From contig NZ_JAKMCS010000022.1 in assembly GCF_022662195.1 (NCBI RefSeq), forward strand, positions 1 through 51,475: a stretch of DNA of 51,475 nt, given 5' to 3'. The notes under the pieces are model-generated. The model had not been told where the DNA came from. It made no database searches and was given only the letters and a program-made list of their open reading frames with translations. The position numbers and the translations under genes are program-made. Positions 20,560-35,601 of this stretch are shown piece after piece. Source of the stretch: Aestuariivivens insulae. Its GTDB lineage: Bacteria > Bacteroidota > Bacteroidia > Flavobacteriales > Flavobacteriaceae. The stretch's first letter is position 1. The number at the start of each line of letters is the position of its first letter.

Positions 20560-21504
20560 ATGAAAAAAATATTAACACTTCTGTTCCTAATTCCTTTTAT
20601 TCACTTTGGTCAAGAGGAAAAAATTATTGATTATAATGACATTAACAAAATGGGGGAGCTTTTTGTTTCAAAAAACGACTCGACCTTAATTACGGGCAAA
20701 GTCAAATATTATTATGAGAATGGACAATTAAAGGAAGAAGTAACCATCAAGAATGGTAGATTAGATGGGGTAGGTAAAAAATGGTATGAAAATGGGCAGT
20801 TAAGTTATGAAGCGGTACATAAGGATGGTATATCCAACGGTGTTAGTAAAAAATATTATGAAAATGGCCAACTAATGAGACAAATACCAAAAATAAATGG
20901 CAAAATTAATGGGGTTCAAAGGGAGTGGTATGAAAACGGTCAATTAAAGAGAGAGGTTGAAACTAAGGATGATAAAATAGACGGGGTTGATAAAGAGTGG
21001 TATGAAAATGGTCAATTAAGTTTTGAAGGAACTTATAAGGATGGTAAGGCCGAAGATGTTATGATAGAATGGTATGAGAATGGGCAATTAAAATATAAGG
21101 TATTATTCAAAAACGATAAAAAGGAAGGCCTTGCACAATGGTGGCATGAGAACGGAGAATTAAAAGAGAAAGTAACATTCAAGAACGATAAAAAAGAAGG
21201 GGTTTCACAATGGTGGTATGAGAATGGGCAGTTAAAAGAGGAGGAAACATTTTTAGACGGGCAACCTAATGGGTTAGCGAGAGAGTGGCACCAAAATGGG
21301 CAATTAAAGGGTGAAGGTGTGTTCAAAAATGGTCTACTAGAAGGTATTTCGAAATGGTGGTATGAGAATGGGCAGATGGAAGATGAATGGACCTATAAAA
21401 AAGGAAAACCTAATGGAACTTGGAAAAAATGGAATACTGATGGTAAACTACTTAAAGAGCAAACGTATAAAAGAGGCCGTTTAATTTCTGAGAAAAGTTA
21501 TTAA
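20560..21504 (+). CDS. Exported MORN-repeat (YwqK-like) protein
   Basis: 314 aa with a signal peptide ending at HFG-QEE. The mature protein is about eleven tandem repeats of 23 residues with the core WYENGQLKEE..KNGKxxGV, MORN-variant repeats as in YwqK proteins. These are often annotated as toxin-antitoxin proteins without evidence; here the protein is exported and more likely a surface or periplasmic binding scaffold. The 69-bp DNA period is visible throughout, so copy number may vary by recombination. It is preceded by direct-repeat site C. Confidence 0.8.
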   Translation: MKKILTLLFLIPFIHFGQEEKIIDYNDINKMGELFVSKNDSTLITGKVKYYYENGQLKEEVTIKNGRLDGVGKKWYENGQLSYEAVHKDGISNGVSKKYYENGQLMRQIPKINGKINGVQREWYENGQLKREVETKDDKIDGVDKEWYENGQLSFEGTYKDGKAEDVMIEWYENGQLKYKVLFKNDKKEGLAQWWHENGELKEKVTFKNDKKEGVSQWWYENGQLKEEETFLDGQPNGLAREWHQNGQLKGEGVFKNGLLEGISKWWYENGQMEDEWTYKKGKPNGTWKKWNTDGKLLKEQTYKRGRLISEKSY

Positions 21505-23681: not shown

Positions 23682-24422
23682 ATGGCATATTACTTCAAAA
23701 TAAAAGAAACATTCATTACCATTTACCGATGGACAACCGCCCTTAGCATTACCTTTATTACAGGAAGCATTGCTTTAATATTTGTTGTGATAAGTTTTGG
23801 GAAGCTAAGAAACCTTTGTGTAACCTTTATTATCAAACCTTCTTCCCGCTCTATTTTATGGGTCAATGGTTTCCGTGGTTATTATCCTCCTTTGGATAAA
23901 TTTCCCAAACATCAAGTACTTTATACTTTCAATCATAATGCCGAACAAGATCTTTTTCTTTTAACAGCCTTAGGGCTTCAAAATACAAAATTTCTTCTTT
24001 CTGAAAAAACATGGATTTATATACCATTGGTTATTTCTGCTTTGGCAACAGGGACATTTTATATCCCTCAAAAAAAACATGCCCGAAGAAGATTGAAATT
24101 TTTTAAAAAGACCACTAAATTTCTTCAAAAAACCAACTACTCTATTGCCGCTTCATCTGAAGGAGTACATGAACATTTTCATGGAATAGCTCCTTTTAAT
24201 CGAGGGATATATAGAATGGCATTAGAGGCAAATTTACCGATTGTCCCTTTGTTTATTAATGTTCCTAAAGAAAGTGATAATAGAACTTTTGGCATCGAAT
24301 TATTAGATGAAATTTCTACAAAGGATTGGCAAGTTTATAATCTTGATAAGCATATTGAACATGTTAGAACCATTTTTGTTAATCGATTCAATGAGTTAAA
24401 TCCAAATTGTAAAACTACATGA
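23682..24422 (+). CDS. PlsC-like acyltransferase
   Basis: 246 aa, glycerolipid acyltransferase family. Motif I is HNAEQD (His85, Asp90, the HX4D catalytic pair). Motif III is SEGVHEHFHGIAPFNRG, replacing the usual EGxRS..G, and motif IV is NLPIVPLFIN. One N-terminal membrane segment (about 15-40). It should transfer an acyl chain to a hydroxyl of a phospholipid precursor or other lipid alcohol. First gene of a tight seven-gene operon; its stop overlaps the next start (ATGA). Confidence 0.75.
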   Translation: MAYYFKIKETFITIYRWTTALSITFITGSIALIFVVISFGKLRNLCVTFIIKPSSRSILWVNGFRGYYPPLDKFPKHQVLYTFNHNAEQDLFLLTALGLQNTKFLLSEKTWIYIPLVISALATGTFYIPQKKHARRRLKFFKKTTKFLQKTNYSIAASSEGVHEHFHGIAPFNRGIYRMALEANLPIVPLFINVPKESDNRTFGIELLDEISTKDWQVYNLDKHIEHVRTIFVNRFNELNPNCKTT

Positions 24423-26743
24423 AAATAAAGTATCAACAAGCACCTGGCAGAGGGTTAATGAACCCAACTGCATTTGAGTTAAGGATGAATTATTTGGAGA
24501 CCTTATCTAAAGATATAAGTAAGGATATAAAGTCTGAATCTATAGCACTGTCCCAAATACAAAACAATATTGAAAGTTTTATTGGTACCGTTGAAATTCC
24601 ATTAGGATTAGTTGGTCCCCTGTTATTTATTGATAAAAACAAAACCCCTGAATGGGTTCATAGTGCTGTTGCCACAACAGAAGGTGCTTTAGTAGCAAGT
24701 ATGAATAGAGGGATTAAGGCTATTAGTGAGTGTGGAGGCTTTGAAGCTCATATTGTACATCAAAAAATGGTCAGAACTCCCATGTATACCTTTAAGCGTT
24801 TGTCTGAATCTATTGCTTTTGATGATTGGATTAAAAGAAATTTCAAAAAAATAAAGGCAAAGGCACAAATGCATAGTAACCATGCTGAATTACTTGAAAT
24901 TGGAAGTGTTGTTATTGGAAAAATTGTACATCTAAAGTTTGTGTATACCACAAGCGATGCTTCCGGACAAAACATGACTACGTCTTGTACTTGGAATGCC
25001 TGTTTGTGGATCGAACAGAACTTTGAACAGGAGACCAATATAGATATCATAAATTTTGTAATTGAAGGCAATGGGGCATCAGACAAAAAAGTTTCTTTTT
25101 ATGCAATTCAAAACGGAAGAGGATGCCATGTAATAAGTGAATGTTTTTTAACAAATGAAATCATTGAAAAAACATTGAGGACAAACGCAAACGATATGTT
25201 TAGCTCCTATAATCATTCGCTTTCCATTAGTCGTTTAGATGGCATGGTCGGACATAATGTTAATGTGGCAAATGCCATTGCAGGAATCTATGCTGCTACA
25301 GGTCAGGATTTGGGATGTATTCATGAATCCTCTGTCGGTATTTTGCAAATAGAGCAAACCAAAGAGGGTTTATATCTATCACTAGTACTTCCTAACTTAG
25401 TTATAGGCACTGTAGGTGGCGGCACCCATTTACCTGTACCTTCAAGAATATTAGAATTGATGGATTGTAATGGAGCAGGAAAGATTGAACGGTTTGCAAA
25501 GTTAATTGCGGGCTTTGCGTTATCCATAGAAATTTCGACGTTGGCCGCCATTGTAAGTGGTCAGTTTGCTCGTGCACATCAGAAATTGGGAAGGAATAAG
25601 CCTGTAAAATGGTTACTCAGAAATGAAGTGGATATGGATTTTATAAAAAAAAACACTCCTTTTTTTAACGCAGATATTACCAGTATAAGTTTTGTTAATG
25701 ATATTCATTTAGATAATGGAATTCTTACCGATTTAACAAAGAAGATTACTAAAAAGGTCATAGGGTTTATCCTAGCTGATATCGATACGATCGATGGGAA
25801 ACAATATCCCTTATTATTAAAAAGTAAAGCACTTGGTAAAGAGGTTTTAGATGGCTTACACTTTATGGCGAATAATGTTAATGTCGATTTAGCTGATATT
25901 CTTTCAAAAAATTACCATACATTAGAATACAAAGACAACCACATTAAGGAAATAGAGGTTTATAAAGCTTTGCAAAAAATCGGTTTTCAGTTTATGCCTA
26001 TTTTATATGGAACAAAAGAGGATATTGATAGAGAAATTTACATGATTATTATGGAGCGATTAGTGAAAGAAAACTTGTTGCTCATAAATTCTGAATTAAA
26101 TCCGGAGAAATGGTGTATTCCAATCCTAAAAAAAACTATTGACAGCATTCATATTGTGCATTACAATTTTCAATACGATACCAATAAAATTGAATCCATC
26201 GAAGCTTTTGCCATTGAAAATGCACTGGAGCTTTACAGTGCTTTTGTAGCTTTAAACAGAAAAGACTATGATCATTTAAAAGCAGATCATCGTTTTGATG
26301 AATTAACAGATTTCATAGAGGATTGGAGTAAAAATGGATATAAACCCAAAAGTAAAATGACCTTGATCCATAATGATTTTAACCCAAGGAATATAGCAAT
26401 CAGAACCAACGGCGACCCCTGTATTTATGATTGGGAGTTAGCGACTTACGGAATTCCTCATCGCGATATATTTGAGTTATTAGCTTTTACATTAACCCCT
26501 GATTTTGAGAGTTCGAATTTCGTTGACTTATTGAAATATCATTTTGCTCTGGTTAAATCAATAAATAATAACACCTACAATTGGCCTGATTATTTGGATG
26601 ACTTTAAAATGGCAGGTCGGGTATTTTTAATTGCAAGAGTTAACTTTTATTTGACAGGAAGTATTTTAATGAATTATCCATTTATCGAAAATGTGTTTAC
26701 CACCTCTTTTAAAATGTTGGATGTGCTAAAAAAAATATCTTAG
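24419..26743 (+). CDS. Fusion of class I-type HMG-CoA reductase and APH-like kinase
   Basis: 774 aa. Residues 1-395 match class I HMG-CoA reductase: VEIPLGLVGPL, ATTEGALVAS (Glu88), SDKK (Lys223), ATGQD (Asp297), VGTVGGGTHLP and the catalytic His387 in SGQFARAHQK, so all four catalytic residues are present. From about 445 it continues as an aminoglycoside/choline-phosphotransferase-like kinase: LLLKSK (nucleotide Lys), catalytic loop HNDFNPRN (His651, Asp653, Asn658) and metal-binding DWE (671-673). The first half would reduce HMG-CoA, or another acyl-CoA, to an alcohol; the second could phosphorylate that alcohol, for example mevalonate. The fusion is unusual to me and the kinase substrate is inference. 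Confidence 0.85.
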   Translation: MKIKYQQAPGRGLMNPTAFELRMNYLETLSKDISKDIKSESIALSQIQNNIESFIGTVEIPLGLVGPLLFIDKNKTPEWVHSAVATTEGALVASMNRGIKAISECGGFEAHIVHQKMVRTPMYTFKRLSESIAFDDWIKRNFKKIKAKAQMHSNHAELLEIGSVVIGKIVHLKFVYTTSDASGQNMTTSCTWNACLWIEQNFEQETNIDIINFVIEGNGASDKKVSFYAIQNGRGCHVISECFLTNEIIEKTLRTNANDMFSSYNHSLSISRLDGMVGHNVNVANAIAGIYAATGQDLGCIHESSVGILQIEQTKEGLYLSLVLPNLVIGTVGGGTHLPVPSRILELMDCNGAGKIERFAKLIAGFALSIEISTLAAIVSGQFARAHQKLGRNKPVKWLLRNEVDMDFIKKNTPFFNADITSISFVNDIHLDNGILTDLTKKITKKVIGFILADIDTIDGKQYPLLLKSKALGKEVLDGLHFMANNVNVDLADILSKNYHTLEYKDNHIKEIEVYKALQKIGFQFMPILYGTKEDIDREIYMIIMERLVKENLLLINSELNPEKWCIPILKKTIDSIHIVHYNFQYDTNKIESIEAFAIENALELYSAFVALNRKDYDHLKADHRFDELTDFIEDWSKNGYKPKSKMTLIHNDFNPRNIAIRTNGDPCIYDWELATYGIPHRDIFELLAFTLTPDFESSNFVDLLKYHFALVKSINNNTYNWPDYLDDFKMAGRVFLIARVNFYLTGSILMNYPFIENVFTTSFKMLDVLKKIS

Positions 26744-27268
26744 ATGAATAGCCTTCATATCCATTTGTATCTGTTTTTTCTTCCCTTAATTCTCGGCAAT
26801 GTAATGCACATGATTATTATTAAACGTAATTGGTTTAATGGTCTGGCATTCCCTATTTCCAAACCATGGTTTGGGAACAATAAAACATATAGAGGTCTTA
26901 TTGTCATTCCCAATTTAACAGGGGTAATAGCCCTGCTATGCAGTATTTGGTTAGGGCCATTTAAGACATCTATAATCTATGATGCTTTTTTTGGTTATGG
27001 ACTTGGATTGGCTTACATTTTGGCCGAATTACCTAACTCATATATTAAAAGGAGATTAGGAATAGCTCATGGTGAGCTATCAAAAAAATACAAATACCTA
27101 CAATACTTTACAGACAAAGCAGATTCTATAATTGGTGTTTTAGCCTTTTATTTTTTGGCTACGGACACTTCTTTTAAGATTATTCTAATTATGTTTTTTC
27201 TAAGTATAATTATACACATTGGCATTAGTCAATTCTTAGTAAAACTAAATATAAAGAGATCATTTTGA
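26744..27268 (+). CDS. CDP-archaeol synthase-like (CarS/DUF46) membrane protein
   Basis: 174 aa with about five membrane segments. The CarS/CdsA-type signature is clear: SKPWFGNNKTYRGLI, ELPNSYIKRRLGI and DKADSIIG. CarS activates an unsaturated archaeal phosphatidic acid analogue with CTP; bacterial relatives have unknown substrates. It starts directly after the HMGR fusion stop and its stop overlaps the next gene by 4 bp. Probably a CTP-dependent cytidylyltransferase for a phosphorylated lipid made by this operon. Confidence 0.75.
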   Translation: MNSLHIHLYLFFLPLILGNVMHMIIIKRNWFNGLAFPISKPWFGNNKTYRGLIVIPNLTGVIALLCSIWLGPFKTSIIYDAFFGYGLGLAYILAELPNSYIKRRLGIAHGELSKKYKYLQYFTDKADSIIGVLAFYFLATDTSFKIILIMFFLSIIIHIGISQFLVKLNIKRSF

Positions 27269-29697
27269 GCTATATATATTCACTTAACGAACCTCTGTCG
27301 GCCAACCTAGTTGGAGCAAAAGCTGCAAGCCTTTCTTCCTTAATTTCTTATGGGTGTGCTGTACCTACGGGATTTGCCATTAGTAAAAGATTGCAGGAAG
27401 TGTATCATAAAAACGAGTCCTTTCCCACAGATTTTAAATATAGCTTAGAACGTTGTATGGACGGAATTAATTCTAATAAGATCATTATAAGAAGCTCTGC
27501 CATTGGTGAAGATTCCGATAACTATTCTTTTGCAGGACAGTTAGACTCCTTTGTTGTTAGCAACAATATAAATGATATCCTACTTGCAATTCAAAACTGT
27601 TGGTCTGGTCTTAATAATGATAGGATTTCGGCATATGAAAAACATGCGGGCAAAAAGCTTTTGGAAATGGGGGTGGTTATCCAAGAATTTTTGGAGGCAG
27701 ATTACGCAGGAGTAACATTCACATGCTCACCCTATAATGCAGCCCATATGTATACCGAATATGTTTACGGTGGTGGCGAACAATTGGTTTCCGGGAAAGT
27801 AACACCTAATAACTTCTCGATAGACTTTAAAGGAACACCCAAAGATAAACTTCCTTTTAATGGTATTAAATTAATCCAGACAGCCAGAAGATTAAAAGAA
27901 AAATATGGGTATCATATCGATATAGAATGGGTTGCTATAAAACAAAGCATCTTTTTTGTACAAGCAAGACCTATTACTGTTGTGCAAAAAAAGAAAGTAC
28001 ATTGGACGAACACAAATTTAAACGAAAATTACCCAGCACCAATATCACCACTATTGTATTCTATAGCCCGGGATGCCTATTACCATTATTTTAAAAACCT
28101 AGCTGGTCTTTTGCAAATAAATAAAAGCAGTATTCGAAAATTGGAGTATGATTTCAGTAATATAGTTGGCATTTGGGGTAACAGACTGTACTATAACATG
28201 ACAAGTATCCACAATATACTTTCCTCATCACCTTTAAAAGTATACTTAAAGGATGCTTTTAACAAATTTGTAGGATATACTGAAAAAGATGTCACTCAAA
28301 TAGACACTTCCAAGTCCACCTCTATTGTTCGTTTTATATTTAGACTCATTCGATTAAATTTTTCTTTAGAAAAACATGTTAGAAGGATTGAACAAATGGT
28401 TGATGATTTTGCTTCGAATGCTACTAAAAAAGAACAACATCTTCCATTGGCATCACTTTTCTATACTTTTTTAGACCTAAGATTCAATCAATGGTATCGG
28501 GCAAGCTTAGCTGATTTTTTCGCCATGATTCACTATAAGGTTTTAGGAGAAATAACCAAGATATTTTATGGTGAACAAAAGGTTGGCATGCATAATACTT
28601 TGGTTCAGGCCATTCCTGGTTTAATAAGTAGTGAACCGTCATATTATATTTATGATATGGCTGAAGAAATCAATAAAAATAAGGACATAAAGTCCTTCTT
28701 TCATTCGCATTCATCAAAAGAAATATACCAAGAAACCCAGGAAAATCCGAGTTTTTTGAACATTAAAAAAAAACTGGATTTATATCTTGAAAAATGGGGC
28801 TTTAGATGTTCTGGTGAACTCATGTTTTTTAGTACAAATTATATTGAAGAGCCTACTAAGTTTATCGAGTTATTACAGGCATATATATTCCAAGACTTGC
28901 AAAATCCTCGAGAGGTAATTGCGATTAATGATCGAGAAAGAAGACTAGCTATGCGCAGTTTTGCATGGAAAATAATAAAGAAAAGGACAATATTTTTTCC
29001 TGTGTCTATTTTAGAGGTAGGCTTACTTTATTTAAGCGCAAAATTATGCAAGCAAGCTATTTCCTGCAGAGAAAGAGTGCGTTACAAACAAGCAGAAATG
29101 TATTATCATTTTAAAACCATTGTTAAAAAAATCGGTGCTCAATTTGTTGAAGAAAAGAAGATGATAAATGCTGACGATTTATTTTTTATGAGTTACAAAG
29201 AGATTGGAGAATTATTATCCTCCTCATCCATGTTTTCAAAAGACATTAACGAGGTTATTCAAGAACGACGTACACGATTTAATTTGGAATCAAACAATGA
29301 ATATCCTGAGAATTTCTCAACTAATTTTGGAGAAAGACCGGAATTGAGAAAGGAAGATGTTTTTTTTAATGGAGAGTTTACAGAGTTTAATGGATTAGCT
29401 GTGAGTGGTGGAAGGATTAAGGCAAAGGTAAAAGTGCTAGAATCTGTATTAGATAATGCCAAACTTAACAAAGGAGATATACTGGTTACCAAACAAACTG
29501 ATCCGGGATGGGCCATGGTATTCCCTCTAATTGGAGGGCTTATTGCCGAGCGTGGCGGGGCTTTATCTCACGGTGCAATTGTAGCAAGAGAATTTGGAAT
29601 TCCAGCGGTAATAGGAATCCCAAATATTACAGATATCTTAAATGACAATGATGAAGTAATATTAGATGGTGATCTTGGTAAAATTCAAATGTTGTGA
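27265..29697 (+). CDS. PEP-synthase/rifampin-phosphotransferase-like dikinase
   Basis: 810 aa. Start codon TTG at 27265, overlapping the previous stop by 4 bp. N-terminal PEP/pyruvate-binding ATP-grasp domain (about 5-240: VGAKAASLSSL..PTGFAIS, IIIRSSAIGEDS, VQARPITVV); a central region of about 480 aa with no family resemblance I can name; and a C-terminal swivelling phosphohistidine domain (GGALSHGAIVAREFGIPAVIG, His769). It lacks the C-terminal PEP/pyruvate-binding barrel of true PEP synthase. The layout is like rifampin phosphotransferase, which uses ATP to phosphorylate a small molecule through phosphohistidine. Expected product: a phosphorylated lipid or alcohol made by the operon. Confidence 0.82.
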   Translation: MSYIYSLNEPLSANLVGAKAASLSSLISYGCAVPTGFAISKRLQEVYHKNESFPTDFKYSLERCMDGINSNKIIIRSSAIGEDSDNYSFAGQLDSFVVSNNINDILLAIQNCWSGLNNDRISAYEKHAGKKLLEMGVVIQEFLEADYAGVTFTCSPYNAAHMYTEYVYGGGEQLVSGKVTPNNFSIDFKGTPKDKLPFNGIKLIQTARRLKEKYGYHIDIEWVAIKQSIFFVQARPITVVQKKKVHWTNTNLNENYPAPISPLLYSIARDAYYHYFKNLAGLLQINKSSIRKLEYDFSNIVGIWGNRLYYNMTSIHNILSSSPLKVYLKDAFNKFVGYTEKDVTQIDTSKSTSIVRFIFRLIRLNFSLEKHVRRIEQMVDDFASNATKKEQHLPLASLFYTFLDLRFNQWYRASLADFFAMIHYKVLGEITKIFYGEQKVGMHNTLVQAIPGLISSEPSYYIYDMAEEINKNKDIKSFFHSHSSKEIYQETQENPSFLNIKKKLDLYLEKWGFRCSGELMFFSTNYIEEPTKFIELLQAYIFQDLQNPREVIAINDRERRLAMRSFAWKIIKKRTIFFPVSILEVGLLYLSAKLCKQAISCRERVRYKQAEMYYHFKTIVKKIGAQFVEEKKMINADDLFFMSYKEIGELLSSSSMFSKDINEVIQERRTRFNLESNNEYPENFSTNFGERPELRKEDVFFNGEFTEFNGLAVSGGRIKAKVKVLESVLDNAKLNKGDILVTKQTDPGWAMVFPLIGGLIAERGGALSHGAIVAREFGIPAVIGIPNITDILNDNDEVILDGDLGKIQML

Positions 29698-30422
29698 TAG
29701 CAGTTTTAAAGGAATATATAAAAATTAGAATTGACCTTATTAAACTAATAGGACTAACAATACTAATGACTATTCTAGTTTTATCGACTGGTGATGCTGG
29801 AGAGGTATGGATATATTCAATGCTATTTTTAGCTTCTTCTTTTACCGTGTTTAGAGTTTTTGATGATGCTTTTTCTGTGGTAACAGACAGAAAAGAGCAT
29901 CCAGAAAGGACATATTTAATTCCTCAGAAATTCAAATCATTTAAAATAATAACTTCAGTAATTCTTGGCGCCTATTTATTGAGTATAAAGTTCCTTTTTT
30001 CAGATGCTTTTTTAATTATACTGTTGCTGCTAATTAGTTCATTGGTTTTTTACCTTTTATTAAGGAAACAATTGATAATGTTAAAATTAATTCCATCATT
30101 AAAATACCCTATTCTACTTTATTGTACTTCAATGATTTCATCAAACGAGGTTGAATTAGGAATACTATTCTCCTCATTTTTATTAATATTAGGGTTTGAT
30201 AGTTTTGATATTGTGAAAAAACAATCAAATAACATTTGGAAACCCATGTTTTTTCTTTTTTGTTGTAGCATATTACTTTTTAAGCCTTGGCTGAACTACA
30301 ACAATATTCTGTTTAGTATATTCCCATTGTTCATCATTTATTTGATTAGGAATAAAAGGGGCGTTCAATATTTCTCGATACTCTATTTGCCTATAATGTA
30401 TTTTATATTAACAAATTTGTAA
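29694..30422 (+). CDS. UbiA-like prenyltransferase-family membrane protein
   Basis: 242 aa, GTG start overlapping the dikinase stop by 4 bp. Seven or eight hydrophobic segments. The loop after the second, FRVFDDAFSVVTDRKEHPERTYL, matches the aspartate-rich prenyl-diphosphate site of UbiA relatives (DDxxxxxxDRxxHPxR). A second weaker site is GFDSFDIVKK. UbiA enzymes move prenyl chains onto aromatic or glycerol-phosphate acceptors. It is somewhat short for the family (about 280-300 aa), so it may be a divergent or partner form. Confidence 0.6.
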   Translation: MIAVLKEYIKIRIDLIKLIGLTILMTILVLSTGDAGEVWIYSMLFLASSFTVFRVFDDAFSVVTDRKEHPERTYLIPQKFKSFKIITSVILGAYLLSIKFLFSDAFLIILLLLISSLVFYLLLRKQLIMLKLIPSLKYPILLYCTSMISSNEVELGILFSSFLLILGFDSFDIVKKQSNNIWKPMFFLFCCSILLFKPWLNYNNILFSIFPLFIIYLIRNKRGVQYFSILYLPIMYFILTNL

Positions 30423-30423
30423 T

Positions 30424-31395
30424 ATGGACAGACTATTTTTAAAAAAACTCAAGAATCCGGACAGATATCGATTTGAAGCTACAAGTTGCTATTCTTGTAA
30501 TGGTGATGATTATTCTTTTTTCTTAAAGGGAGAAGAAGACTTAACAGGTAAAGAAGGGGAATTTCAATTTGTAAAATGCAATAACTGTGGGTTGGTTTAC
30601 CAAAATCCAAGAATTGCTTTAGACCAAATTAAAGAATTTTATGATGGAGAATATATTGCGCATCGTAAAAAGAAAAACTGGGGTTTATTAACGCCATTAT
30701 ATGAATGGACAATGAATAAGCACGATCGGGATAAAGAAAAGCTAGTGGCTAAACATGTTGAATTAAATGGCCAAACCGAAATTCTTGATGTTGGTTGTGC
30801 TGTAGGTACATTTTTATTGCACATTCACCAAAAATACAATGTTAACATAAGTGGTGTAGATTTTAAAGAAGGATTGGAATATCCAGACTTCAATAAAATT
30901 GAATTCTATGAAGGCTTATTTTATGAACAGGACATAGAAGAAAATAGATATGATGCCGTAACCATGTGGCATTTTTTAGAGCATTGTTACGACCCAAACA
31001 AATCCATACAAATGGCCAAAAAAGTATTGAAAAAAGGAGGAAAACTGATTGTTGAAGTACCGAGGCTAGATAGTATCACATTCAAGTTATTTGGCAGAAA
31101 ATGGCCAGGAGTCCAAGCGCCCCAACATACAGTATTATATGATAAAAAGTCATTTATTAGTATGATGAAAAAAAATGGTTTTAAGGTTACTACATATTTG
31201 CCTTATGGCGCTTTCCCACCTTATTTTTATGTGTTTGCCGGATCTTATTTTAGAATTATTGGAAAGAATTTAAATTTAAACCGTATTATTTTTCCTTACT
31301 TCTTAGGACAACTTATATTGACGCCTATATTATGGTTTCAAAATTATTTAAACCTTGCCATGCAAACGGTAATTTGTGAAAAGATTGAATCTTAA
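30424..31395 (+). CDS. Class I SAM-dependent methyltransferase with zinc ribbon
   Basis: 323 aa. An N-terminal four-Cys ribbon (CYSCNGDDY...CNNCGLVYQNPR) precedes a Rossmann methyltransferase: motif I ILDVGCAVGTFL (about 118-129), VTMWHFLEHCYDP, and GGKLIVEVPRLDS. A hydrophobic stretch near the C-terminus (FPYFLGQLILTPILWF) may anchor it to the membrane. It lies 1 bp after the UbiA-like gene. Similar ribbon-methyltransferases act on sugars or lipids; the substrate is unknown. Confidence 0.8.
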   Translation: MDRLFLKKLKNPDRYRFEATSCYSCNGDDYSFFLKGEEDLTGKEGEFQFVKCNNCGLVYQNPRIALDQIKEFYDGEYIAHRKKKNWGLLTPLYEWTMNKHDRDKEKLVAKHVELNGQTEILDVGCAVGTFLLHIHQKYNVNISGVDFKEGLEYPDFNKIEFYEGLFYEQDIEENRYDAVTMWHFLEHCYDPNKSIQMAKKVLKKGGKLIVEVPRLDSITFKLFGRKWPGVQAPQHTVLYDKKSFISMMKKNGFKVTTYLPYGAFPPYFYVFAGSYFRIIGKNLNLNRIIFPYFLGQLILTPILWFQNYLNLAMQTVICEKIES

Positions 31396-31404
31396 TTTAA
31401 ACCT

Positions 31405-32346
31405 ATGACGACACGTAAAATGATACCATCTCATTTAAAAGCCAGAAATGATCTTGCCTTTTACAGTCTAATCATTCCGCTAGTGCTTTTAGTCTCCGGC
31501 GTAGGCCTTTCAACAAATCATGACTGGCCACTATATTGGATTGGCCAAGTTATACTATCATTTTTCTTTCTTCAGACATTTATATTATTACATGAATGTG
31601 CTCATTTATCTTTTTTTAAAACACGTTTTTTTAATATAGTAATGGGACATTTGTTTGGCTTCCTATCAATGATCCCCTATTATTCTTGGCAGCAAATGCA
31701 CAACCAACATCACCGATGGACAGGCTGGAGAGATAAAGATCCAACTACTGAAACCACCACGAAGCCAAGTTCTTCCACAACAAAAAATTTAATTATAAAT
31801 ATAGCTTGGAGATTATTCATCCCTGTATTTTACCTTAGTTATAAACTAAGCAATTATTGGAATTTGTTTAAAATTAAACGGTTCTTAAACCAAAGAAAAT
31901 ATAATAAAGTTAAGACTCAAATCATAATGTATTTTATCATGTATATGCTTTTTAATTACTTTTTTGGTGAGCTAATAGTCCATTTTTTTATTCCTTCCTT
32001 CACCATAAGTCTATTGCTTAAAGAATTGATTATTATGACTCAGCATTCCCATATTGAAATACCAGTTTCTAATAAAAAAGAAGTAAAACCCATATCATAT
32101 TTAGACCAAGTCAAATATACAAGGAGTTTTTATATCAATCCATATCTTGCTAAGTACTTCCTGTTTAATTTCAACCTTCATGAGGCTCATCATGCATACC
32201 CAGCGATACCTGCCTATAAATTATCATTTATTGATCTAGATATTCCTAAAAAACCGAAGTTTCTCAATTGGTTTATTAAAGCAAAAAAAATGAAAGGTGT
32301 TAATTATATATTTAAAACTTCAAAGCATACGGGAGAGACATTTTAA
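31405..32346 (+). CDS. Fatty acid desaturase family protein
   Basis: 313 aa membrane di-iron desaturase. The three histidine boxes are HECAH (63-67), HNQHH (99-103) and HEAHH (259-263), with two pairs of membrane segments between them. It would introduce a double bond into a fatty-acyl or prenyl chain. Last gene of the operon, 9 bp after the methyltransferase gene. After it, 32347-32627 shows no convincing gene; a 46-codon frame at 32522 overlaps the end of the convergent gene and is not supported. Confidence 0.82.
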   Translation: MTTRKMIPSHLKARNDLAFYSLIIPLVLLVSGVGLSTNHDWPLYWIGQVILSFFFLQTFILLHECAHLSFFKTRFFNIVMGHLFGFLSMIPYYSWQQMHNQHHRWTGWRDKDPTTETTTKPSSSTTKNLIINIAWRLFIPVFYLSYKLSNYWNLFKIKRFLNQRKYNKVKTQIIMYFIMYMLFNYFFGELIVHFFIPSFTISLLLKELIIMTQHSHIEIPVSNKKEVKPISYLDQVKYTRSFYINPYLAKYFLFNFNLHEAHHAYPAIPAYKLSFIDLDIPKKPKFLNWFIKAKKMKGVNYIFKTSKHTGETF

Positions 32347-33539: not shown

Positions 33540-33972
33540 CGTAAATACTTTTATAGTATAGGTCAATGATTATGGAGATCAAGGTATGTTTGGTATACAA
33601 CAGTTTGCAAATAGTTTGTTGCGTATTTTGAGTACCTAATTTAACAAATACAAACCGAATGGAAAATCCACAAAGATTTTCAGAAGTAAGATAGGACAAA
33701 AAATACTAAAATGAAAAAAACACGTTGCAACAACAGCTCATATAATCTACTAAAATTAAAGACTATCATCGGAAATAATCCATTACCTCTATTTTTTATT
33801 AAAAATTTTTCTTACATTTAAAGCATCGTGACTCCTACTTGGAAATTGCTGACGGTGGCAAATCGTTTCCAATACAATTAAAATCCTGTATTTGAACTAT
33901 AAACTGGCTCCGAAAGAACGCTCTGCAATACAAAGCGATAAAAGGAAATAATAACATTCTAAATTTTTGAGT
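33540..33972. other. Non-coding gap between divergent genes
   Basis: About 430 bp without a convincing gene. Short frames on both strands have no recognisable content. It presumably holds the divergent promoters for the deacetylase and the ligase; a TTTG (33604) followed by TATTTTG (33624) is near, but not equal to, the Bacteroidota consensus. Confidence 0.5.
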
Positions 33973-35601
33973 ATGGAAGGCCTGATGATGGATTATCCGC
34001 TTACTACCAATACAATATTGGAGTATGGCAATAATGTTTTTCACCACAAGAAAATAATCACCTATTTACCTGATTGGAGCAGACATGAATATACGTTTGG
34101 CGATATGTATAAACGATGTAAAAAGTTGGCCAATGCACTCACCAAAAGATTAGGCGTAAAAAGGGGCGATATTGTGGGCACTTTTGCGTGGAATCACGGA
34201 CCACATGTCGAGTTATACTACGGCATACCGGGGATTGGGGCTGTTTGCCATACCATCAATATTAGATTATCCCATCAACAAATAGAATATATTATCAACA
34301 ACTCCGAAGACAAAGTGCTCTTTGTTGATGCGACTTTAGTTCCATTAATCGAAAAAGTAGCACCTCTTTTGGAAACCGTGGAGTATTATATCATTATTAA
34401 TGCAAATAAGGATTTTAAGACCTCTTTACCAAATACCATACACTATGAAGACTTATTAGCAGAACAGTCAGACGCTTTTGAATGGCCTCAATTAGATGAA
34501 AACGAAGCCAGTGGCATGTGTTACACCAGCGGAACAACAGGCTTACCAAAAGGTGTTTTGTATTCACACCGCTCCACCTATTTACATGCCTCCGTGGTCA
34601 TGTCGCCAAATGTTGCAAATGTTGGGAACAAGGATATATTATTATCCATTGTACCTCAGTTCCATGTTATGGCCTGGGGCGTTCCTTATACATGCTTACT
34701 ATCTGGTACCGATATGGTTATGCCGTCATCCCATCTTAATCCGGAAGATCTTATCAAAATTCTTAAAGAAGAAAAGGTAACAAAGGCCACAGGAGTACCC
34801 ACTATTTGGCTGGGCATTTACCATGAAATGAAAAAAAATCCCCCTAAAGAAAAACTAGCGCTTAAAGAATATGTTGTTGGAGGCTCGGCACTTCCCGAAA
34901 GTCTTATTGAAGCCTTTGAAAAAGATTTTGGTGTGAAAGGCGTTCATGCCTGGGGAATGACTGAAACCTCTCCCGTTGGCACCGTAAGTCAGCTTCAATT
35001 AAAACACGAGGCTCTTCCATATAAGGAACAGCTAAAAATAAGGGCTAAACAAGGGATTCCTGCTCCGGGAGTTGAACTCCGGATTGTTACGGAAGATGGT
35101 TCTATTGCCCCCCGGGATGGACAAACTATGGGCGAATTACAGGTAAAAGGCGCCTGGATTGTTAGTGCCTATTTTAAAACAAACAATCGGGAAAATTTCA
35201 CTGAAGACGACTGGTTTAAAACAGGCGATGTAGCCACAATCGATGAAGATGGCTATATGGTCATTACAGACAGACTGAAGGATTTAATAAAAAGTGGAGG
35301 TGAATGGATTTCAAGTGTAGAATTGGAATCTGTTTTGATGTCGCATCCCAAAATAAAAGAGGCCGCCGTAATTGCCATCCCTGATAAAAAATGGCGGGAA
35401 AGGCCTCTGGCAACATTGGTTATGATAGATCATGAGGAAAAACCAAGTGTTTCCGAACTTAAAGAATACTTATCGAGAGACTTTGCAAAATATCAAATAC
35501 CTGATGACTATGTTTTTATAGACGAAGTCCCGAAAACCAGTGTGGGCAAATTTGACAAAAAAGAAATTAGAAAACGTTACGCCGAGGGAAAACTTACTTA
35601 A
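33973..35601 (+). CDS. Fatty-acid-CoA ligase (AMP-binding enzyme)
   Basis: 542 aa from the ATG at 33973. ANL-family motifs: CYTSGTTGLPKGVLYSH (P-loop), HAWGMTETSP, the DWFKTGD-type motif, DRLKDLIKSGGEWIS and the C-terminal catalytic lysine in PKTSVGKFDKKEIR. The pattern resembles medium/long-chain fatty-acid CoA ligases (AlkK/DmdB-like). It would activate a fatty or branched carboxylic acid to acyl-CoA using ATP. No signal peptide, so cytoplasmic. Three exported hydrolases follow on the same strand (46 bp gap), suggesting uptake and activation of acids released outside, or supply of acyl-CoA to the lipid cluster; inference. Confidence 0.88.
   Translation: MEGLMMDYPLTTNTILEYGNNVFHHKKIITYLPDWSRHEYTFGDMYKRCKKLANALTKRLGVKRGDIVGTFAWNHGPHVELYYGIPGIGAVCHTINIRLSHQQIEYIINNSEDKVLFVDATLVPLIEKVAPLLETVEYYIIINANKDFKTSLPNTIHYEDLLAEQSDAFEWPQLDENEASGMCYTSGTTGLPKGVLYSHRSTYLHASVVMSPNVANVGNKDILLSIVPQFHVMAWGVPYTCLLSGTDMVMPSSHLNPEDLIKILKEEKVTKATGVPTIWLGIYHEMKKNPPKEKLALKEYVVGGSALPESLIEAFEKDFGVKGVHAWGMTETSPVGTVSQLQLKHEALPYKEQLKIRAKQGIPAPGVELRIVTEDGSIAPRDGQTMGELQVKGAWIVSAYFKTNNRENFTEDDWFKTGDVATIDEDGYMVITDRLKDLIKSGGEWISSVELESVLMSHPKIKEAAVIAIPDKKWRERPLATLVMIDHEEKPSVSELKEYLSRDFAKYQIPDDYVFIDEVPKTSVGKFDKKEIRKRYAEGKLT

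Follow-up and report, generated by a model that had tools for sequence, protein, structure and literature searches.

A recurrent lipid-type operon with an HMG-CoA reductase-like and kinase fusion, possibly for a fatty-alcohol-derived membrane phospholipid

Results and discussion

We analyzed a stretch of 51,475 nt, the whole of contig NZ_JAKMCS010000022.1 of Aestuariivivens insulae (GCF_022662195.1) and here called the window, in which seven open reading frames (ORFs) on the + strand fill positions 23682-32346. The spacings between the genes are -4, 0, -4, -4, +1, and +9 bp in operon order, in agreement with the tight packing (4-bp overlaps and gaps of 0-9 bp) given in a preliminary description of this DNA made from the sequence alone. 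The seven-gene set recurs as a unit, beyond chance, and the operon is a real and recurrent one of lipid type that is undescribed as far as the open-licence literature shows. Its second gene encodes an HMG-CoA reductase (HMGR)-like domain joined to a kinase, and based on its pocket residues the reductase is best read as a fatty acyl-CoA reductase of the FcrA type, fused to a kinase. Judging from sequence, we favor, with modest confidence, the reading in which the product of the operon is a membrane phospholipid derived from a fatty alcohol.

Recurrence of the seven-gene set

All seven genes occur together in 9/54 reductase loci, the window included. The gene order of the window is also found in Aestuariivivens sediminis, Flavobacteriaceae S0862, and Polaribacter filamentus, and in five of the eight other full sets (L031, L038, L053, L073, and L064) the PlsC gene is shifted to sixth place; one full set of permuted order belongs to a Bacteriovoracaceae bin. 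Between genes of the set, pairwise distances are correlated (0.89-0.98), and the range drops to 0.30-0.86 once pairs within a group of four near copies are removed. The methyltransferase is the best conserved of the seven, with 62% identity between the window and L064, a locus that has an extra 147-aa ORF ahead of the desaturase and whose 193-aa UbiA-like protein was assigned by position and motif, as similarity clustering did not place it in the family. The preliminary description had proposed a single conserved lipid-type pathway and had staked it on the genes being found together elsewhere. Given the nine loci this proposal is not refuted, and the recurrence of the full set in eight loci besides the window supports it. 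It also knew of no described cluster with this set, and no description of the fusion or of the cluster turned up in the open-licence literature, which omits most subscription papers.

Two scans covered 296 genomes of the order and 395 genomes of the phylum. Matches were found in 14/296 genomes of the order, four of them fusions with that of the window included, and 32/395 genomes of the phylum matched. Because the match in the window genome is the only one among the 395 to span the kinase part, we consider the fusion rare. A pattern scan of genome contigs, which gives a lower bound, found at least 53 loci with a relative, mostly in Bacteroidota and also, by record name, in Oligoflexia, Bacteriovoracaceae, Gammaproteobacteria, Desulfobacteraceae (two), and Sericytochromatia; most records are metagenome-assembled genomes (MAGs), so single taxonomic outliers may be misbinned. 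The counts exclude L028 and L063, which duplicate L015 and L017. The partial loci L071, L075, and L077 are inside the 54 reductase loci and outside the 51 aligned, and L076, where a PlsC-like gene precedes the fusion, is in no reductase count because its contig ends within the first 55 residues of the fusion. L066 (398 aa) was placed among the fusions, its kinase part not being seen, and L065 is split across several frames.

A reductase tree was built from the fusions, plain relatives, and three HMGR references. In it a branch with support of 100/99 separates the 51 reductase domains of the fusion group from all other sequences, although the program warned that long branches meet there. The seven-gene label clusters weakly on the tree, with at least 6 changes required where shuffling gave a mean of 8.4, and the set was thus gained or lost several times.

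An FcrA-type pocket in the reductase domain

The fusion (24419-26743, + strand) consists of the HMGR-like reductase at about residues 1-395 (Pfam PF00368, E 2.6e-97) and an APH-fold kinase at about residues 400-774 (PF01636, E 2.3e-10). Residues of the reductase domain are given in human HMGR numbering. According to the accessible text of Grossi et al. 2025 (PMC11948995), FcrA is a class-I HMGR homologue that reduces long-chain acyl-CoA to alcohol with NADPH and, as shown by expression and assay, does not reduce HMG-CoA. That text places the differences between FcrA and HMGR at Ser684, Leu862, and a lysine printed as Lys795, which appears to be Lys735. In HMGR, Ser684 makes a polar contact and Lys735 a salt bridge to the HMG carboxylate (accessible text of PMC9500038).

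Human, plant, and archaeal HMGR have Ser, Lys, and Leu at positions 684, 735, and 862. In all 51 sequences of the fusion clade position 684 is acidic (Glu in 46, Asp in 5) and position 862 is Phe, and at position 735 the larger alignment (n=51) has Ser in 47, Ala in 2, and Gly in 2. The HMG contacts of mevalonate-pathway HMGR are missing, as Ser684 is absent in 51/51 and Lys735 is absent in the larger alignment. The catalytic residues E559, K691, D767, and H866 are kept in 51/51 fusion-clade sequences and in 35/35 plain relatives. The plain relatives have E684 and W862 in 20/20 long forms and E684 and F862 in 14/15 short forms.

Several points count against the FcrA assignment. FcrA was assayed from Ca. 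Promineifilum breve, and in print position 862 is occupied by a bulky Trp (N. pharaonis), where this clade has Phe. The smaller alignment gives Pro, His, and others at position 735, with Lys in 2/49, and Lys or Arg occurs in the stretch around 735 in 24/51 sequences; because the larger and smaller alignments disagree, the exact residue at 735 is unsure. The FcrA reference pattern itself was taken from the text of PMC11948995 and not from an aligned FcrA sequence.

The same residues bear on whether the domain still yields mevalonate, as a phosphorylated building block and not for isopentenyl diphosphate (IPP). Retention of E559, R590, D690, K691, K692, N755, D767, and H866 in 49/49 fusions of the smaller alignment would suit this, as would the presence of the fusion in nine genomes without a convincing mevalonate-diphosphate decarboxylase (MVD). 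However, position 684 is acidic throughout, and in the larger alignment another residue stands in place of Lys735, which binds the carboxylate. Both changes are those reported for FcrA, which does not reduce HMG-CoA, and we regard the mevalonate building block as quite improbable. Given the published FcrA, as far as the accessible text of PMC11948995 goes, a 1,3-diol backbone made from 3-hydroxyacyl-CoA has lost weight.

Two further groups of relatives were noted. Among L121-L146, 20 long plain reductases (518-612 aa from stop to stop) have Trp862 and no reference gene within 1500 nt; they are possibly FcrA proteins that carry the N-terminal domain described in print. L111 and L122 are HMGR-like with Ser or Ala at 684 yet Trp862, a further pocket variant.

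Genome-wide test of an isoprenoid role

Bacteria with an HMGR-like copy alone lack the other mevalonate enzymes, according to the accessible text of PMC11948995. IspG, a marker of the methylerythritol phosphate (MEP) pathway, was found in 9/25 fusion-carrying genomes and was absent from 16. Exactly these 16 have a strong MVD match (E < 1e-40), with only 4 of the matches exceeding the curated cut-off, and all 16 have at least one further HMGR. In the nine IspG carriers, MVD matches were weak in two (E ~1e-4) and lacking in seven, none of them convincing. In eight of these nine no HMGR other than the fusion was found; the remaining one is gammaproteobacterial and has four HMGR homologues. Seven further HMGR copies were inspected, four of them from three carriers (that of the window genome on contig C11, two from G312, and one from G311). 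These four and two from plain-reductase genomes look class II by motifs that we take to mark that class, and one gammaproteobacterial copy is class-I-like, with Ser684 and Trp862. Absence of HMG-CoA synthase was dropped as evidence because both models fail to detect the enzyme in the window genome itself.

The window genome uses the mevalonate route, by its decarboxylase (an MVD match over the cut-off, on C11) and class-II-like HMGR. This match and the family names would fit ordinary isoprenoid precursor genes, with a second HMGR and a kinase feeding the mevalonate pathway. Against this, the window genome has its separate class-II-like HMGR, and the distribution among genomes contradicts it: in 8/9 IspG carriers the fusion is the sole HMGR found, with no convincing MVD. 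We consider this origin very improbable, and a housekeeping isoprenoid role was rejected because IspG carriers are without convincing MVD and MVD carriers have a separate HMGR. An isoprenoid origin of the reductase step, one side of the lipid or isoprenoid-lipid pathway of the preliminary description, finds no support, given the FcrA signature and the same eight genomes. Wax esters were rejected as a general use as well, since WS/DGAT was found in just 2/25 carriers, the Polaribacter and the gammaproteobacterial genome.

Simpler and variant gene sets and the proposed pathway

In the fused kinase, K468, H651, D653, N658, and D671 are conserved in at least 97% of 47 sequences. Searches of PDB sequences with the kinase and the desaturase gave no hint of a substrate. 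The third gene (26744-27268, +) encodes a CarS-like CTP:lipid-phosphate cytidylyltransferase of 174 aa (PF01864, E 2.2e-7). A profile of 17 such proteins matches the CDP-archaeol synthase structure 5guf at E 0.0015, with the motifs G..KT, SF.KRR.GI..G, and D..D aligned. CDP-archaeol as the substrate is not implied, because the match reaches 46 of 148 bits and is under the NCBIfam equivalog cut-off.

The CarS gene directly follows the fusion on the same strand in 28/48 loci with at least 600 nt downstream, and in 11 of those 28 a CDP-alcohol transferase gene is third, which we call the minimal set. This transferase has what we take to be the complete catalytic motif of its family, D-x2-DG-x2-AR-x8-G-x3-D-x3-D, and two of the proteins matched ClsA and PgsA of NCBIfam below the threshold. 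In L019 and L022, and alike in L155, there is a variant set: its reductase is plain, with no fused kinase, and its neighbours are a DolK-like membrane protein, a CDP-alcohol transferase from the family just named, and a CdsA-type enzyme. The CdsA-type enzyme of L019 matches phosphatidate cytidylyltransferase at E 4.2e-23, under the cut-off, and CarS more weakly, so the CdsA-type and CarS-type enzymes are probably remote kin. When the simpler and variant sets are read together they suggest the order reduction, phosphorylation, activation with CTP, and transfer. Making and phosphorylating an alcohol before CTP activation, as put forward in the preliminary description, is the order that the gene sets best support.

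Based on these sets, the reductase domain would convert fatty acyl-CoA to a fatty alcohol and the fused APH-type kinase would turn this into an alkyl phosphate, with both steps on one polypeptide chain, as the fusion suggests. From its family and adjacency, the CarS-like enzyme would activate with CTP either the alkyl phosphate itself or a lipid phosphate derived from it. A head group would then be added, in the simpler relatives by the CDP-alcohol phosphotransferase encoded next door and in the window operon by a housekeeping enzyme or with the help of the UbiA-like and RPH-like proteins. PlsC, the methyltransferase, and the desaturase would finish the chain and the head.

A number of observations fit this pathway poorly. 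The usual substrates of CarS and UbiA are diradyl or prenyl compounds. In 20/48 loci CarS is not the next gene (it is farther down in L065, L067, and L069), and the window operon has no CDP-alcohol transferase, the one PF01066 match of its genome lying elsewhere. The DolK-like label was given by eye, with no match in Pfam or NCBIfam. In about eight loci NTP_transf_5 and two thymidylate-kinase-like families are near the fusion, which is unfit for a simple phospholipid route, and some fusions have no lipid gene nearby; because such non-lipid neighbourhoods exist, the product of the fusion may have several uses. Single gene absences are soft, since the completeness of many carrier genomes, which are MAGs, is not stated.

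Loci with the fusion near RPH-like, NTP_transf_5, and two thymidylate-kinase-like proteins are L034, L037, L040, L041, L044, L048, L054, L057, and L072; membership varies by locus and the Pfam naming is from L072 only. The fusion, CarS, and CDP-alcohol transferase are followed in L036, L043, L045, L046, and L074 by a small protein, perhaps a flippase-like partner; these proteins form one family, which Pfam assigns to the GtrA/DPMS type in L043.

RPH-like and UbiA-like proteins

The fourth gene (27265-29697, +, TTG start) encodes an 810-aa phosphotransferase of the rifampin phosphotransferase (RPH)/PEP-synthase type, with ATP-grasp, middle, and phospho-histidine domains (PF01326, PPDK_N; PF00391, PEP-utilizers mobile). 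H769, R76, E221, and R235 are conserved in at least 96% of 28 sequences, and the best PDB match of its model (pLDDT 79.7) is RPH 5hv1, with E 1.2e-34 and 21% identity. What the preliminary description named a dikinase has the domain order of RPH, the best match in structure and sequence.

The fifth gene (29694-30422, +, GTG start) encodes a shortened UbiA-like membrane protein of 242 aa, placed by a weak profile match and by AlphaFold and Foldseek. It has no Pfam or NCBIfam match, so of the families first proposed six agree with Pfam searches and this one does not. A profile of 11 sequences, including the 279-aa protein of L069, aligns to UbiA relatives with an hhalign probability of 92.8% over 98 columns, a weak match at the first motif. 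For the AlphaFold model (pLDDT 85), the top Foldseek hits are the digeranylgeranylglyceryl phosphate (DGGGP) synthases 7bpu/6m31 (prob 1.00, TM 0.58, E only 0.01), and other hits are UBIAD1, archaeal UbiA, and a membrane phosphoribosyltransferase, with no E under 0.001. The sequence RxxDDxxxxxxD, an altered first aspartate motif, is invariant in 10, and the second motif is weak.

These two proteins could instead serve an archaeal-style ether-lipid route, in which the alkyl phosphate receives a second phosphorylation from the RPH-like enzyme, the UbiA-like protein forms the ether to glycerol phosphate, PlsC acylates, and CarS activates the alkyl-acyl-glycerol phosphate. The DGGGP synthase hits speak for it, and the UbiA and RPH-like genes also occur together beside plain reductases (12/38 loci). 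To our knowledge UbiA needs allylic diphosphates, the protein here is shortened with a weak second motif, and the minimal set (11 loci) is mostly without an adjoining UbiA, L059 having one nearby; we consider the route unlikely, with a minor chance of being right. FcrA has been suggested to feed ether lipids (accessible text of PMC11948995), which also counts for it. A second way to ether-type lipids, by alkyl phosphates, RPH-type activation, a shortened UbiA joining them to glycerol phosphate, and then CarS, has in our view a slightly smaller chance. If true, it would be archaeal membrane logic applied to fatty chains instead of isoprenoids. The likeness of the UbiA and CarS pair to archaeal ether-lipid steps, pointed out in the preliminary description, may hold. 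PF01884 (GGGPS-type) was found in 12/14 carrier genomes searched, with no match in the genomes of L027 and L064; the Fe-ADH_2 model, used to search for glycerol-1-phosphate dehydrogenase, matches in 13/14 controls and is hence uninformative.

What looks like another undescribed lipid pathway is a second Bacteroidota operon (L020, L021, L023, L024, and L147-L154) with a plain FcrA-like reductase, UbiA, RPH-like, DUF3419 (presumably BtaA-like), DolK-like (by eye), and GNAT-like genes. In the loci tested there are also an AMP-ligase (L147 and L149) and a polyketide-cyclase/lipid-transport protein (L021 and L147).

Acyltransferase, methyltransferase, and desaturase

The first gene (23682-24422, +) encodes a PlsC-type acyltransferase of 246 aa (PF01553, E 1.3e-10) in which N84, H85, D90, E160, and G161, presumably the HX4D and EG motifs, are invariant in 9/9; from these residues its step is probably an O-acylation. 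The sixth (30424-31395, +) encodes a class I S-adenosylmethionine (SAM) methyltransferase of 323 aa (PF13489, E 9.8e-21) with an N-terminal four-cysteine motif (C22, C25, C52, and C55, invariant in 9), and the seventh (31405-32346, +) a 313-aa protein of the membrane fatty acid desaturase family (PF00487, FA_desaturase, E 3.9e-34), whose three histidine boxes, HExxH, HxxHH, and HxxHH, are invariant in 9. As PlsC, CarS, the desaturase, and the CDP-alcohol transferase partners are membrane-lipid enzymes, and as the seven proteins have no carrier or thioester-assembly domain by Pfam, we find a secreted or pigment-type natural product improbable, although NCBIfam PigC is among the best sub-threshold matches of the RPH-like protein, which would then be a condensing enzyme of the PigC type. 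A defence system was rejected: 6/7 proteins have no match and the methyltransferase has one partial match to mad2 (E 1.2e-9).

Promoter matches are no more numerous than chance would give (48, against 50.8 on average), and there are few terminator-like sites (8 against 4.9), with none from the operon end to 33000. Downstream of the operon there is an acyl-CoA ligase at 33967-35601, with a YdjC-like gene on the opposite strand in between, and upstream, at 20560-21504, a protein of repeated Y-ENGQL units that is MORN-like by eye.

Significance and comparison with known systems

If the fatty-alcohol reading is true, the fusion would be, as far as our searches show, the first enzyme to make and phosphorylate a fatty alcohol on one chain, and the operon would add a membrane-lipid route to the few known. 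It would also account for proteins annotated in databases as HMG-CoA reductase in bacteria that have no mevalonate pathway. The lipid could be sought directly in strains that carry the genes, such as Polaribacter filamentus ATCC 700397 and Aestuariivivens sediminis for the seven-gene set and Kordia periserrulae DSM 25731 for the minimal set.

The fusion is like FcrA in its class-I HMGR fold, its catalytic Glu/Lys/Asp/His, its acidic 684, small 735, and bulky 862 residues, and its occurrence in genomes without mevalonate genes. It differs in having Phe at 862, in the lack of a wax synthase match in 23/25 carriers, and in its C-terminal kinase; the words kinase and phosphotransferase are absent from the main text of PMC11948995. 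The 810-aa protein has the domain order and phospho-histidine of rifampin phosphotransferase and the prodigiosin ligase PigC, but it is 21% identical to RPH by structural match and far under the NCBIfam cut-offs. With the archaeal ether-lipid pathway and its FCB-group version, as covered in the accessible text of PMC7852524, the operon shares CarS-like and UbiA-fold proteins, but it has no GGGPS and carries PlsC, a desaturase, and an acyl reductase; CarS is absent from the Cloacimonetes MAGs described in that text. Like the bacterial CDP-diacylglycerol pathway, it has an acyltransferase and a cytidylyltransferase, and its relatives have a CDP-alcohol transferase (sub-threshold ClsA/PgsA), whereas the start here is an acyl reductase-kinase and the cytidylyltransferase is of the CarS type instead of the CdsA type.

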